Under the pieces are notes generated by a model, which saw only the letters and a list, made by a program, of their open reading frames with translations, did no database searches and was not told where the DNA came from. Positions 51,066 to 56,450 of a stretch of DNA of 64,000 nt are shown piece by piece. The translations under genes and the position numbers were made by a program. Source of the stretch: Planctomycetota bacterium (lineage in GTDB: Bacteria; Planctomycetota; Phycisphaerae; Sedimentisphaerales; Anaerobacaceae); contig DUZJ01000003.1 in the NCBI GenBank assembly GCA_013349615.1, positions 1 to 64,000 on the forward strand, in the 5' to 3' direction. Each line of letters starts with the position of its first letter. Position 1 is the first letter of the stretch.

Positions 51066-52685
51066 ATGGATTCGCGCGTAATCAAACTAACAACAGCAGC
51101 CCATAAACACGGCAATCTAAATATACGTACGTGTGGGCTCGGATTTTTCCCAAAAGGTATTCTTGGGGGCTCAACCAAAGCTAAATTAGGTAACGAAATT
51201 ACAGTCAAGGCGGAGGGGCTTCCTGATTACATAAAGACAGATATACCTACGGATAGAAATACCGGGCGCCCACGGTGGATATTCCGGAGGAGATCCTGGG
51301 TAAAGAAGTTTGTGCGCTATCACAACCTCAAACCAAACGAATCGGTAAGGATTAAGCGGATTAATGAGAAGACATATGAAGTAATTCCAGAGAATAACAA
51401 TGGCCAAGGAAGTACGAAACAAAGACTAAGGAAAACAACAGGAACAAGGCAAGTTACTAGCGAGGAAAGACGCGTTGAGATATATCAGAAACATTTTGAT
51501 CCTACCAAAGCTAGTGATGTTACGCACGATACACCACTGGAGCGATTAAATTTGAACTGGCGTGAGAAGGATTTACGAGAAAAAGAAAGAACAAAACATG
51601 TTCATCGACTACACCCATATCTGGGAAAATATATTCCACAATTAGTTGAGATATTTCTTCGAAAGTATTTTACTCCGGGACAAACTGTTCTAGATCCTTT
51701 TGTTGGTTCCGGTACAACATCAGTTCAGGCGAATGAGCTTGGAATAAACTCCATAGGCTATGACGTATCAGCGTTCAATATTCTTCTCGCTCGTGTCAAA
51801 GCAGGTAAATATGACCTAATTAAAGCGCGCAAAGAAGTTTTAGATGTATTAAATAAGGTACGTTTGGCAACACAGATAGATAAGAGACAGGCAAAGCTCT
51901 TCGTTGAGGATTTGCCGGATGAGCTCAAAGAGCTATTGAGTGAAACGGACAGTGAATATCTTAAGGAGTGGTTCGCACCGAGAGCTTTACGAGAATTACT
52001 AACGTATCGCTACTTTATCAAGATCGGCACATATTACTATCTTGACCTGTTGAAAGTTATATTGTCACGGTCAGCAAGATCAGCACGGCTTACTACTCAC
52101 TTTGACCTAGACTTTCCAAAGAATCCACAGAGAGGACCATATTGGTGTTACAAGCACTCTAGGACGTGTTCACCAATCAAAGAAGCCTTCAAATTTTTGC
52201 GCCGATATAGCCTGGACACATTAATGCGAATTGAAGAGTTTGCACGTGTGCGCACAGATGCTTCCGTGGAGCTTTACCACGCCGACAGCCGTAAAGTGAG
52301 AATTCCACCTATAGATGGAGTTATGACTAGCCCGCCGTATGTTGGACTAATCGACTACCATGATCAGCACGCTTATAGTTACCATCTTTTAGGATTGCCG
52401 AGAAATTGCCATAATGAAATCGGCCCGGCTTCTAAAGGTAGAAGTGAAGAAGCCAAGAGACAGTACAAGCACGACATTGCTGCTGTTTTTCATCGAGTGC
52501 TAGATGCAATGAAATCAGGCGGACACCTAGTCGTAGTTGCGCACGACCGAGCCAATCTCTATTCTGATATAGCGAACAGTATCGGAGTGGAGGTAGAGGA
52601 TATTGTTAGGAGACATGTTAATCGCCGCACGGGTAGACGTGCTGGCAGTTTTTTTGAATCAGTATATATTTGGAGGAAACGATGA
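51066..52685 (+). CDS. DNA methyltransferase with apparent N-terminal B3-like DNA-binding domain
   Basis: 539 residues. The S-adenosylmethionine motif VLDPFVGSGTT is at 208-218 and the catalytic motif TSPPY at 421-425, in that order, so the amino-methylating class (N4-cytosine or N6-adenine) is clear. KHVHRLHPYLGKYIPQL just before motif I is typical of such enzymes. Residues 14-108 (GLGFFPKGILGGSTKAKLG, WIFRRRSWVKKFVRYHNLKP, VRIKRINEKTYEVIP) look like a B3/EcoRII-N-type pseudobarrel, a sequence-specific DNA reader. This fold call is by eye. AAGGAG precedes the ATG. It pairs with the restriction gene 21 bases downstream. Confidence 0.85.
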   Translation: MDSRVIKLTTAAHKHGNLNIRTCGLGFFPKGILGGSTKAKLGNEITVKAEGLPDYIKTDIPTDRNTGRPRWIFRRRSWVKKFVRYHNLKPNESVRIKRINEKTYEVIPENNNGQGSTKQRLRKTTGTRQVTSEERRVEIYQKHFDPTKASDVTHDTPLERLNLNWREKDLREKERTKHVHRLHPYLGKYIPQLVEIFLRKYFTPGQTVLDPFVGSGTTSVQANELGINSIGYDVSAFNILLARVKAGKYDLIKARKEVLDVLNKVRLATQIDKRQAKLFVEDLPDELKELLSETDSEYLKEWFAPRALRELLTYRYFIKIGTYYYLDLLKVILSRSARSARLTTHFDLDFPKNPQRGPYWCYKHSRTCSPIKEAFKFLRRYSLDTLMRIEEFARVRTDASVELYHADSRKVRIPPIDGVMTSPPYVGLIDYHDQHAYSYHLLGLPRNCHNEIGPASKGRSEEAKRQYKHDIAAVFHRVLDAMKSGGHLVVVAHDRANLYSDIANSIGVEVEDIVRRHVNRRTGRRAGSFFESVYIWRKR

Positions 52686-52706: not shown

Positions 52707-53537
52707 ATGGCCGATTCCAATAAAATGAAGGATTCGATCCAATCTGTTATAAAAGAAATGATGGATAGGGTCATGAATAAGGTTCTCATAACAGATCCCT
52801 TCATAAAGGAGCAACACCATGCAAAAAAACCTCTTTATGCTGCACTCGTTCCAGACGAGATATTCAAAAGTTCACACTTCGAAAGAAGATTCGTAACTCC
52901 ATTTGGCAGTGCATGGGAGAAGCTTGCTATAGTAGCGGCTAATGAGGGATTGGGATGTGGGATTAAAAGTCATTCAATTCATGGAACAGTCAAGGCTGAG
53001 AGGCTGAGACGCATTACAGAAATTCTTAATGCTCTTGAACACGGGGGGCGTGTAAAAGATAGGAGGAGGCCAGATTGGAATACAGAGCTTCCGTACGTTT
53101 TGGAAGGAGGCGGTGAGGATATTCCTGTAACTGTGATTTGTGACGTCTATGCGGAGGACAAAGAAAAAGGTAAAAAATATGCTTTTGAGCTTAAAGCTCC
53201 TCTTCCCAATAGCGATCAAACTAAGGTTAGTAAGGAGAAAATATTCAAGCTGTACAGCATGGTACCATCACAAGTAGACGAAGCCTACTATGCTTTGCCA
53301 TACAATCCCTACGGGCGTAGAGAAGATTACAACTGGAGTTTCCCAGCCAGGTGGTTTAATATGAAGGAGGATAATGTAGTTCTAATAGGTGATGAATTCT
53401 GGGAAAAGATAGGGGGATTAGGTACCTATCAATCATTCATTGAAGCAGTAAACGAAATCGGACAAGAATATAGAGACAGGATATATAGAGAATTTCTCGG
53501 TATTGAACCCCCCGAGGAAGAAGGATTGCAACTTTAA
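52707..53537 (+). CDS. Type II restriction endonuclease, TdeIII/MjaII-like
   Basis: 276 residues. The likely PD-(D/E)xK centre is Asp146 in VICDVYAED with Glu161-Leu-Lys163 in YAFELKAPLPNSD. The block SSHFERRFVTPFGSAWEKLA (56-75) resembles the TdeIII family, whose characterised members cut GGNCC. This family match is from memory and tentative; the nuclease assignment is firmer because a methyltransferase lies immediately upstream. GAGGAA precedes the ATG. The repeat array begins 70 bases after its stop. Confidence 0.75.
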   Translation: MADSNKMKDSIQSVIKEMMDRVMNKVLITDPFIKEQHHAKKPLYAALVPDEIFKSSHFERRFVTPFGSAWEKLAIVAANEGLGCGIKSHSIHGTVKAERLRRITEILNALEHGGRVKDRRRPDWNTELPYVLEGGGEDIPVTVICDVYAEDKEKGKKYAFELKAPLPNSDQTKVSKEKIFKLYSMVPSQVDEAYYALPYNPYGRREDYNWSFPARWFNMKEDNVVLIGDEFWEKIGGLGTYQSFIEAVNEIGQEYRDRIYREFLGIEPPEEEGLQL

Positions 53538-53606
53538 CACTTCCTATTTTTCATGCTAAGAAAAAACTAGGTAATAAACTAAGAATAAAAGCTAGGAACA
53601 GGAACC

Positions 53607-53627
53607 CGGCGGCTGGCCAATAAAGTA
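53607..53627 (+). repeat. Cassette-boundary repeat R1
   Basis: CGGCGGCTGGCCAATAAAGT followed by A. It shares the core GGCTGGCCAATAAA with R3 and R4 and lies between the restriction gene and the HEPN gene. Read in frame it would encode GGWPIK and a stop, like R3 and R4. Confidence 0.75.
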
Positions 53628-53663
53628 ATTTGAATACATATTAACTTTTTGGAAGCAATAAAA

Positions 53664-54425
53664 ATGGCACGAAAGAATGAAGCTGCTGATTGGTTAATTA
53701 GAGGTTATTCAATTCCAGAGATCGCCATGAAAATGGGTATTTCACCTATTTCAGTAAAGCTGTATCTATGTACGGTGGTTGGAGAGGGAAAAATTCAACG
53801 TTCCGATATATTTTTCAGTATTTCACCTAACAAGAGAAAAGCAATTGAAGAAATTGTAGGAAATTCTCAGGAATATCAAACTTGGGAAATTCAGAAAATT
53901 CTCGAAAATAATGGCTATGTAGTGTGTAAAGAAGAATTAGATATTTTTTTGATGTTGCGGGAAAAAGATGCTTTGCTTGGTGATATGTATGAGTATATCA
54001 GGAAAATTGAGCTAACATTACATGATATGCTCAAAAAAGTATTTGTTGCAGAATTTGGTGGAGACTGGTGGCGTAAGGGTGTTCCTTTGAGTATTCGTAA
54101 AGAATGTGTTGCCCGAAAAGAAGAAGATGAAGAGCCAGTAAAAGATCCTTATTGCTATACTACGTTTATTAACTTGAGTGTTATTATTGAAAGAAACTGG
54201 AAAATATTTAGCTTAGTGCTACCTCCAAAACTTACAATCAACAAAAAAACACTGCTTAAAGAATTTGGAAAAATTAACAATATCCGTAATAGGGTTATGC
54301 ATCCAGTAAAAACGCGTGAGCTCACAGAAGAAGAATTTTATTTCGTACACGATTTTCATAAGAAAATTGAACGTAGCAAGTGGCAACCTCCCCCAACCAA
54401 TGTCAACGAAAACACAGAATCCTAA
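53664..54425 (+). CDS. HTH-HEPN domain protein (Swt1-type), candidate toxin/defence RNase
   Basis: 253 residues from the ATG at 53664, with GGAAG upstream; a TTG 15 bases earlier is rejected. An N-terminal helix-turn-helix is seen at 8-45 (WLIRGYSIPEIAMKMGISPI). The C-terminal half is a Swt1-type HEPN domain: FGGDWWRKGVPLSIRKEC at 131-148, then NIRNRVMHP with the RNase motif Arg208-x4-His213. HEPN proteins commonly cleave RNA in phage defence and toxin systems. No antitoxin partner is obvious. The gene is bounded by repeats R1 and R2. Confidence 0.78.
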   Translation: MARKNEAADWLIRGYSIPEIAMKMGISPISVKLYLCTVVGEGKIQRSDIFFSISPNKRKAIEEIVGNSQEYQTWEIQKILENNGYVVCKEELDIFLMLREKDALLGDMYEYIRKIELTLHDMLKKVFVAEFGGDWWRKGVPLSIRKECVARKEEDEEPVKDPYCYTTFINLSVIIERNWKIFSLVLPPKLTINKKTLLKEFGKINNIRNRVMHPVKTRELTEEEFYFVHDFHKKIERSKWQPPPTNVNENTES

Positions 54426-54435
54426 GAACATCAGT

Positions 54436-54480
54436 ATCGACGAAGCAATCGACGCCCACGGCGCCTGGCCAGATGCGTTT
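54436..54480 (+). repeat. Cassette-boundary repeat R2 (divergent, longest)
   Basis: It reads ATCGACGAAGCAATCGACGC and continues through CACGGCGCCTGGCCAGATG. It matches R3 and R4 over GACxCxCACGGCGxCTGGCCA but has GATGCG in place of AATAAA. It is flanked by AACATCA (54428-54434) and TGATGTT (54487-54493), a perfect inverted pair. Confidence 0.7.
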
Positions 54481-54513
54481 AACACATGATGTTAAGAAAT
54501 CGAGATTGTTTAT

Positions 54514-54855
54514 ATGACCTTAAAAGAGATAAAACAACAAAAAAAAGAACTAACGAAGATATTGCAAAATGACTCTGCCGAGCAGAGGGTTATAGATCTT
54601 GTGAAGCTTGCCCAACAAGTTGGAGCGAGTACTCTAAGGATGGGACGAACCACAGCCGACGTTAACGAAGTCCCCCAAAATATTATAACTGAGAGTGAAA
54701 TCGTGCAGAATATAAATATGGCGTTGCAGACTGCCTCGATGCTTGTAATGAGCAAAGCCGCTATTTGTGCTGCTATAACTGCCGTGATAAGTGCATTAGC
54801 GGCATGGGCCGCGGTCTTCGCGAATTTTTTGCGAAGTTATTCAGCGAAACCATAA
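54514..54855 (+). CDS. Small membrane protein in the cassette array
   Basis: 113 residues. An N-terminal helical part (EIKQQKKELTKILQNDSAEQ) is followed by a middle segment and one or two hydrophobic helices at about 76-105 (SMLVMSKAAICAAITAVISA). I recognise no family. A small one-domain membrane protein next to a HEPN protein and nuclease could be a pore-forming or effector partner; this is inference from context. No strong ribosome-binding site is visible. It lies between R2 and R3. Confidence 0.55.
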   Translation: MTLKEIKQQKKELTKILQNDSAEQRVIDLVKLAQQVGASTLRMGRTTADVNEVPQNIITESEIVQNINMALQTASMLVMSKAAICAAITAVISALAAWAAVFANFLRSYSAKP

Positions 54856-54870
54856 GAATCATGCAGCAAA

Positions 54871-54913
54871 TTGATGAAACAATCGACACCCACGTCGGCT
54901 GGCCAATAAAATA
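54871..54913 (+). repeat. Cassette-boundary repeat R3
   Basis: TTGATGAAACAATCGACACC, then CACGTCGGCTGGCCAATAAA and ATA. It starts 15 bases after the stop of the small membrane protein gene and ends 17 bases before the GIY-YIG gene. Confidence 0.75.
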
Positions 54914-54930
54914 AAAAAAAGGGAAGAAGA

Positions 54931-55656
54931 ATGGCAAAAGCAAAAAAAACAAAAAGAAAATCAAGAGCAATAGTCCAAGGTCATTTGGAAAGAATTAACA
55001 GTCAAGTTTTCGATAACTACCGAGATCAAATAACCGAGTTGATTGGTAAGAACCATGGTGTTTATGCTCTTTACCGACGAAATAAGCTTTACTATATAGG
55101 TTTGGCAGCTGACTTAAAAGGACGTATAAGAACACATCTGAAAGACCGCCATAAAGGTAAATGGGACCATTTTAGCCTTTATATAATTCGCAAGGAAGAT
55201 CACATAAGAGAGGTTGAGTCACTATTAGCAAGAATAGCAAAACCACCAGGCAATAAACAAATGGGCAAATTAGGCAGGTCAAGAAACCTTTTGCCATTTT
55301 TGAAACAGATTGTAACTTCGAAAGTCAAGCATGATATTGAGTTTTTATTTGGAACTCCAAAAGAATTACAAAAAAGAAAAAAGAGAAAAGTAAGGAAGAC
55401 AAAGGGGCATCGAGCAAAACGTCCTCTTAAAGGTCTCTTTCCAACCGGAAAGATGATCTATCGCAAATACAAAGGTAAAGACTACAAGGCTTGGATCTCT
55501 GGTAATGGGAAGATCAAGTACAACGGAAAATGGTATGATAGTCCATCGGTTGTTGGCAGCGTAGTTCGTGGCGGAAAATCGACCAACGGGTGGCGGTTTT
55601 GGAAGTACAAAAGCAAATCTGGTGAATTAGTTGAGCTCGCAGTACTGAAAGAATAA
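54931..55656 (+). CDS. GIY-YIG nuclease with C-terminal RAMA-like domain
   Basis: 241 residues. The GIY-YIG domain spans about 40-105: GVYALYRRNKLYYIGLA (43-59) is the name motif, Arg65 in LKGRIRTHL and Glu95 in REVESLLARI are the expected catalytic residues. A very basic linker (about 145-165) leads to residues 170-240, KMIYRKYKGKDYKAWISGNG and WYDSPSVVGSVVRGGKSTNG, which look like a RAMA/DUF2924-type domain thought to read modified DNA. AAGGG precedes the ATG. The stop codon lies within repeat R4. A modification-directed nuclease is the inferred role. Confidence 0.8.
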   Translation: MAKAKKTKRKSRAIVQGHLERINSQVFDNYRDQITELIGKNHGVYALYRRNKLYYIGLAADLKGRIRTHLKDRHKGKWDHFSLYIIRKEDHIREVESLLARIAKPPGNKQMGKLGRSRNLLPFLKQIVTSKVKHDIEFLFGTPKELQKRKKRKVRKTKGHRAKRPLKGLFPTGKMIYRKYKGKDYKAWISGNGKIKYNGKWYDSPSVVGSVVRGGKSTNGWRFWKYKSKSGELVELAVLKE

Positions 55657-55687
55657 TCGACACACACGGCGGCTGGCCAATAAAATA
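55647..55687 (+). repeat. Cassette-boundary repeat R4
   Basis: GAAAGAATAATCGACACACA, then CGGCGGCTGGCCAATAAAAT and A. It contains the stop codon of the GIY-YIG gene and marks the right end of the array; no further gene cassette follows. Confidence 0.75.
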
Positions 55688-55708
55688 GAATTCTTTTATC
55701 TCAGCCTG

Positions 55709-55900: not shown

Positions 55901-56271
55901 GAGCCTGTCCTGAGCAAACCCGTCCTGAGTTCTATCGAAGGAGCCGAAGGAAACAATGAACTACTCAAAAGCATCGAGAATCAAACTTTAGCTCACTTTA
56001 GGCACTTTAGCTCACTTTTCACTAACTTTTCCTCTACAACTGTAGAGAGCGCACTACAAATCGCTCATTTTATGCAAAACAAACCCAATTTCCAAAAAGC
56101 CCAAATGAACGTAAGCCGAGTATTAACAAAGGATTACGAAGATGAGACACTTGGTCAACGCGGGAAAAACAAACCCAATTCAAAGCCAATTCAAAGCCAA
56201 TCAAACCCAATTAAAGCCAATAAAATGCCAAAACAAACCCAATACAAACCCAAAACAAACCCAATTTCAAA
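55901..56271 (+). repeat. Long dispersed repeat with 11-base AAACCCAATTC array, copy 2
   Basis: Starts GAGCCTGTCCTGAGCAAACC and ends in AAACCCAATTC/AAAGCCAATTC units. It matches 37246-37592 over its length, opposite orientation, with a small extra TCCTGAGTTCTATCGAAGGA segment near 55923. An open frame runs through it (55898-56347) but its composition (NKPNSKPIQSQSNPIKANK) is repeat-derived, so I do not call a gene. Confidence 0.75.
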
Positions 56272-56450
56272 GGCAAAAAATGCTGATTCCGTGTCCTGTC
56301 GGCGAGTGCCCGGCTGTTGTGGGCTTTTAGAAAAGTGTCATTTTTAAGAAAGGCGGACAATTTAGATGATAGGGATTTATGAATGATTGTTTCGAGGCAA
56401 TATTACTACTGCGGGTATATCGCTGTTCTATAGCGAGCCTGGATGTCTTT

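Follow-up and report, generated by a model that had tools for sequence, protein, structure and literature searches.

A planctomycete DNA stretch of 64 kb (64,000 nucleotides, hereafter the window) carries a row of single genes separated by a short repeat, and this array works like integron cassettes but fails the tests for being an integron. The best reading, which we give an even chance, is a gene-cassette array that is integron-like in layout, uses an unrelated, gene-derived site and would be served by a trans-acting recombinase. Comparison of the sequences indicates that the arrays are probably true exchange cassettes; that a dedicated, trans-acting, site-specific recombinase does the exchange is plausible, though a little short of even; and a second, integron-independent cassette system in Planctomycetota, with a dedicated recombinase and cores born from a Type ISP 3' end, is put forward tentatively. 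In the proposed mechanism, a cassette would be one gene (sometimes more) followed by a double-stranded site of 20-26 bp, CCCACGGCGGCTGGCCAATAAAATAR. The site arose from the closing stretch, at the 3' end, of a gene for a Type ISP restriction-modification enzyme, and many site copies keep 6-24 codons of that gene, out of frame with the cassette gene. Core-to-core recombination would allow cassettes to be gained, lost and reordered, giving rows of co-directional genes; a trans-acting site-specific recombinase would join a circular cassette to a resident core, leaving the new cassette between two cores, and selection for restriction and other defence genes may maintain the arrays. No published account of such arrays was found in the literature searched, which covered few subscription papers. 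The features of the array and its upstream neighbours are as follows.

51066..52685, + strand: Type II DNA methyltransferase gene (N6_N4_Mtase), the array's upstream neighbour (PF01555, 2.2e-15; PDLC03249, 2.8e-93)
52707..53537, + strand: TdeIII-type restriction endonuclease gene, preceding R1 (PF09520, 5.9e-69)
53605..53628 (core 53608-53627), + strand: R1, minimal core site, GGWPIK-stop only (E 3.1e-5)
53649..54425, + strand: cassette 1, HTH and Swt1-like HEPN gene (Pfam, PADLOC)
54436..54489, + strand: R2, WPxAF variant of the Type ISP tail (IDEAIDAHGAWPDAFNT-stop), with just the left half of the core (E 0.005)
54514..54855, + strand: cassette 2, gene for a small membrane protein without assigned family (Pfam, PADLOC)
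54846..54914 (core 54894-54913), + strand: R3, Type ISP tail (ETIRIMQQIDETIDTHVGWPIK-stop) with the core at its end (E 9.0e-9)
54931..55656, + strand: cassette 3, GIY-YIG and RAMA gene (Pfam; the G013 homologue, at L082, lies between like sites)
55656..55688 (core 55668-55687), + strand: R4, core site, the array's last (E 3.4e-9)

The first-pass annotation had described four copies of one repeat, which holds for R1, R3 and R4. They have the core GGCGGCTGGCCAATAAAATA in common, exact in R4 and with one change each in R1 (an AAAGTA variant, the CGAC..CAC extension also missing) and R3 (a GTCGG variant). R2 matches only the left half, CGACGCCCACGGCGCCTGGCC, and then diverges to AGATGCGTTTAACACATGA, so R2 is another form of the tail and not a full copy of the core. 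The suggestion that all copies could be read as DTHGGWPIK and a stop fits R4 (..HGGWPIK-stop) and R3 (HVGWPIK-stop), but R1 is shorter (GGWPIK only) and R2 reads ..HGAWPDAFNT-stop. The genes are arranged as had been described, one per interval and all on one strand: the first stops 10 nt short of R2, the second 15 nt short of R3, and the third overlaps R4. The exact 14-mer GGCTGGCCAATAAA occurs three times in the 64-kb window, always inside the array; with up to three mismatches it occurs 13 times against 7.7 expected, a count that is uninformative. Two further elements were seen near the array: a short perfect palindrome with a 5-nt centre, TTAACACATGATGTTAA, at window positions 54480-54496, just 3' of R2, and a CAAACCCAAT-type repeat block with a period of about 11 nt at 55970-56290, 3' of R4. 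The same type of block recurs downstream of this genome's sites on contigs C5 (318 bp, 95%) and C41 (322 bp, 88%).

The three genes had been called defence-type, a description that suits the GIY-YIG/RAMA gene (RAMA at 3.8e-12), applies more weakly to the HTH-HEPN gene (Swt1-like HEPN at 3.6e-5, under the Pfam cut-off; PADLOC PDC-M34B at 2.9e-12) and finds no support in the small membrane protein, which matches no PADLOC family. They are not a set fixed in relatives: among 161 genomes of the order, the HEPN gene is found in the source genome alone (1/161) and the GIY-YIG/RAMA gene in 17, with none of the four other members of the genus carrying it. The GIY-YIG homologue of G013 (56% identity) is flanked by two core sites and has different neighbours. 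A Type ISP C-terminus is directly followed by the GIY-YIG gene in G012, and such a fragment follows the GIY-YIG gene in G035; no recognisable tail is present at 14 of the 17 other GIY-YIG loci. The arrangements in G012 and G035 are also what the main rival reading would lead one to expect. According to this rival, the sites are relics: Type ISP genes abounded in these restriction islands, ordinary recombination, homologous or illegitimate, exchanged genes for others, short 3' tails remain as scars, and the islands spread by transfer, all without a dedicated system. We regard it as a serious but doubtful alternative.

The core is not confined to the array. In the source genome, a 15-mer allowing at most one mismatch gave six matches, all exact (three on C3 and one each on C5, C41 and C100), and the reversed-pattern control gave one, so that the core is present on three contigs besides that of the window. 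With at most two mismatches, the core pattern was found in 35 of the 161 order genomes (control, 2/161), and a sequence-only model built from 56 core copies detected 38 of the 161 at E <=0.005. Run on 392 genomes of the phylum, the model gave E <0.001 only in the source genome and in G146, which belongs to the same order; the remaining hits (E up to 0.1) appear to be noise and were set aside. The exact 20-mer was found in 11 stretches of public genomes, ten of which name Planctomycetota, Planctomycetes or Phycisphaerae in their titles, the eleventh being from Omnitrophota; a core site is also present on one IMG/VR contig. The order counts, the phylum scan and the public 20-mer scan together place the site mainly in a single order of planctomycetes. 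The repeat separates different genes in many genomes and is not just part of a single conserved operon.

A weight-matrix scan of 79 loci yielded 105 sites of at least 14 bits, of which 93 reached at least 20 bits (strong sites); these include one within an opposite-strand gene (L140, G022) that is probably a chance match, and gene calls at the loci are simple ORFs rather than the output of a trained gene finder. The preceding gene lies on the site's strand at 74 of the 93 strong sites (15 opposite, 4 none; median gap 42 nt) and the following gene at 75 (15 opposite, 3 none; median gap 39 nt). Both neighbours lie on that strand at 57/93 sites, and at 40/93 both gaps are also no longer than 150 nt. 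Neighbouring strong sites (within 5 kb) are co-oriented in all 19 pairs, with a median spacing of 1137 nt, as are all 26 pairs once weaker sites are added; the spacing ranges over 304-2880 nt. The longest rows comprise six sites in G015:C52 (L077), four in G044:C92 (L137) and the window array. All 18 of the 15-mers common to at least seven genomes in the fetched loci belong to the core, by which the loci had been selected. Sites show a mild excess near contig ends (20/91 within 700 bp against 11.0 expected; 6/91 within 300 bp against 4.7). A second short repeat, TGGCACACAAACTGTGGAG, is present in the arrays at L091, L099, L125 and L077, and in L091 it brackets a ferredoxin-like gene; it is possibly another site family.

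The genes next to the sites are varied. Within the best 25 of 134 Pfam families matched by 113 flanking ORFs are N6_Mtase (7), MmeI_Mtase (7), Eco57I (6), GmrSD_N (5), HNH (5), Type_ISP_C (3), DNA_pol_B_exo2 (3) and Redoxin (3), and PADLOC assigned many restriction families to the flanking ORFs. Cargo scanned singly included a macro domain protein, RNase H, a flavin reductase, a nucleoside hydrolase, DUF429, a cyclophilin and an alpha-galactosidase. By this plain tally of flanking ORFs, the cargo is rich in restriction genes and contains metabolic genes too. The earlier notion of an exchange system for defence genes is not supported in so far as it is limited to them: redoxin, cyclophilin, nucleoside hydrolase and alpha-galactosidase genes also adjoin sites. 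In the alpha-galactosidase gene of G065 (L104:1054-2793), the last codons are swapped in frame for ..ADAHATWPIK-stop.

Similarities between loci of different species suggest that genes have been swapped at the core site. When the oriented loci were compared by BLAST, different genomes shared 95 alignments at least 100 bp long, many of which are unrelated repeats or blocks that end away from sites. Among 25 pairs aligned in core register, 12 share the left flank alone, 10 the right flank alone and 3 both flanks; the pairs are not independent (5 join loci within one genome, 2 involve intact Type ISP genes, and in 3 the identity is weak, 65-75%). In the left-sharing pairs, similarity ends between core positions +18 and +28. 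A transferred gene would give one-sided similarity anyway, since distant genomes have little in common, and what carries information is the place at which similarity ends; that it stops at the core also speaks against relics. In one of the clearest cases, 1115 bp are alike (82%) between C100 of the source genome and G013, ending at core position +19; C5 and C100 of the source genome share 94 bp at 98% from the core onward (TAGCCCTAAATTTTCTAAATTTATGTGC..) behind different preceding genes. In these two contigs the sites are terminal (C5:1-1040 and C100:1-460), as if array ends had a common flank. A further clear case is a 521-bp cassette common to G015 and G068 (90%), with a core or decayed core at either end, the left ends also touching a decayed core. 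From the core onward, a peroxiredoxin cassette is 80-95% alike in G015, G058 and G055. In G015 and G058 the peroxiredoxin gene and a ferredoxin-like gene stand in reversed order at 95-97% identity, an example tempered by the second junction in G058, which is another short repeat with no recognisable core. Mapping of the crossover point within the core gave no significant result (Fisher p 0.11), and the loci compared included no two from one species that differ in the presence of a cassette. The modular exchange proposed in the first-pass annotation thus agrees with the repeat lying between varied genes, its single orientation and the similarity that ends at the core, while the active machinery is something we only infer.

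These data also bear on a short mobile repeat of the REP or MITE kind inserting after genes, which would account for the many copies, several of them solitary and some at host gene ends. We consider it very improbable: orientation is fixed relative to the neighbours, no inverted repeat, terminal or hairpin, was found by consensus-pair check or alignment, and insertion would leave both flanks common to relatives, a pattern seen in one family only (L118/L119/L153, which supplies all three both-flank pairs).

The earlier idea that the repeats are the shared tail of an ancestral gene proved sound, and the gene can be named: homology traces the core to the 3' terminus of a gene for a Type ISP restriction-modification enzyme. 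Read in frame, the site gives ..IDETIDAHGGWPIK-stop, and three intact genes of the order have it as their genuine C-terminus, at L087 (G084, 1160 aa), L121 (G044, 1011 aa) and L129 (G146, 1166 aa), whose proteins match Type_ISP_C at 1e-83 or better. In the window, R2 and R3 are homologous to this tail, R3 matching it at 1.5e-4. Other Type ISP genes of the phylum have related end peptides written in other codons (e.g., IDEVIEAHGGWPGAFHT in G363), and most other Type ISP genes of the order have different ends. PF18135 was found in 48 of the 161 order genomes and had no match in the source genome; the window locus holds no Type ISP enzyme. A tail before the core (at least 15 of 24 bases) is present at 44 of the 93 strong sites and no Type ISP sequence at the remaining 49, which makes the core the fixed part and the tail variable in length. 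Part of this evidence would also suit relics: R2 is another form of the same tail and not a core, C-terminal PF18135 fragments lie detached in several genomes, and at L090 (400-609) and L094, in G068 and G070, a 63-codon ORF is fused in frame to HGGWPIK. By its motif, this ORF resembles the start of an Eco57I-type enzyme and would be an internally deleted restriction gene. Scars of replaced genes do not readily explain the 49/93 sites without Type ISP sequence, nor why one 3' end recurs in 38 genomes when the order's Type ISP genes mostly end otherwise.

The manner in which the site is conserved also separates the readings. In tail-bearing sites, pairwise identity is 85% in the core (a value inflated because the core itself was used to find the sites), 63% in the tail and 28% in the flanks. 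Synonymous changes make up 25 of 95 single-base codon changes in the core (22% expected without protein selection); for the tail the figures are 23 of 123 and 19% expected. Selection on the WPIK tail as a protein was accordingly rejected, and the better-kept core together with a neutral synonymous share indicates that the core is kept as DNA. The last 20 bp being far better kept than the remaining tail, with no protein-level signal, is a further difficulty for relics. An expression signal or a small coupled peptide (xxHGGWPIK) between co-transcribed genes would fit one feature that is otherwise unexplained, namely that a stop closes the frame in 78 of 93 sites, with 11 TGA and no TGG. This alternative is highly improbable, as the synonymous share equals the neutral expectation in core and tail alike and the exchange of genes at the core would be left unexplained.

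The integron tests gave a consistent outcome. Single-gene cassettes in one orientation with a 3' site are an integron-like layout, and the same layout with its mixed cargo would suit a CALIN, an integron array without integrase, with odd attC sites. However, the boxes RYYYAAC..GTTRRRY were found at 1 of 91 sites (0.4 expected from random windows), in agreement with the earlier remark that the repeats have no attC ends. Across 56 sites no base pairs were supported by the consensus, the core has neither an inverted repeat nor a fold, and 186 folds compared with mononucleotide shuffles gave no signal (mean z -0.32). The IntI model TIGR02249 (E <=1e-40) matched in 2 of 36 site-bearing genomes (G083 and G084) and was absent from the source genome, which is 79.8% complete; the search took in 36 of the 38 model-positive genomes. 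The first-pass annotation had looked to an integrase associated with the repeats, and this was not found. A CALIN is therefore extremely improbable.

PF00589 tyrosine recombinases were present in all 36 site-bearing genomes searched, and none of the matches listed in these genomes could be identified as a dedicated recombinase tied to the sites, an outcome that relics would predict. Among the matches listed, a XerC in G019, about 0.4 kb from a site, is the only one within 1 kb; a short recombinase in G015 lies 8 kb from a site, beside type I restriction genes, and those on other site-bearing contigs are 9-38 kb away (G146, with an internal stop, G057, G031 and G062). The source genome has three tyrosine recombinase matches, one of them near full length and of Xer length. 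The acting tyrosine recombinase, if there is one, is a housekeeping Xer or is supplied by another element. The short recombinases of G061 were rejected as candidates, being on small phage-like contigs. That bin contains 33 of them (on C4, C21, C58, C105, C121 and others), on small contigs with similar gene runs, which are probably many related phages or elements binned together.

An integron review (PMC8618304) counts the formation of new gene cassettes among its outstanding questions. The origin of the planctomycete site is visible, which makes the question of cassette birth testable in another system. If the preferred reading of a gene-cassette array is true, integrons are not the only means by which bacteria keep exchangeable rows of single genes; if, in addition, a dedicated recombinase is at work as in the more tentative proposal, cassette birth (a gene plus a site, with a variable upstream join and a fixed end) could be read from present genomes. 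The preferred reading would also explain the turnover of restriction and other defence genes in planctomycete genomes and offer, in a short unstructured site, a possible new recombination tool.

Among known systems, integrons and CALINs have in common with the planctomycete arrays the co-oriented series of single genes with a recombination-like site behind each gene, the varied cargo that includes defence, redox and cyclophilin genes, and cassettes that recur in distant hosts of other orders. In contrast, the planctomycete site is conserved in sequence, unstructured and free of attC boxes, 34 of the 36 genomes searched have no IntI, and a known gene can be named whose 3' end gave rise to the site. 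Type ISP enzymes (PF18135) are related through the homology of the site to their last codons, with which three intact genes of the order end; they differ in that the other sites keep only 6-24 codons or fewer, mostly out of frame and behind unrelated genes, and in that the site DNA is conserved beyond coding need. XerCD p-dif modules, in which a housekeeping recombinase shifts single genes from one short double-stranded site to another, would have a similar appearance, and Xer is the only full-length type of tyrosine recombinase seen in the source genome, although the core has, by eye, no dif-like inverted half-sites. Elements that integrate at gene 3' ends (tRNA-type att sites) likewise use a gene 3' end as their site, duplicated with each insertion, whereas the planctomycete units are single genes without an integrase of their own.
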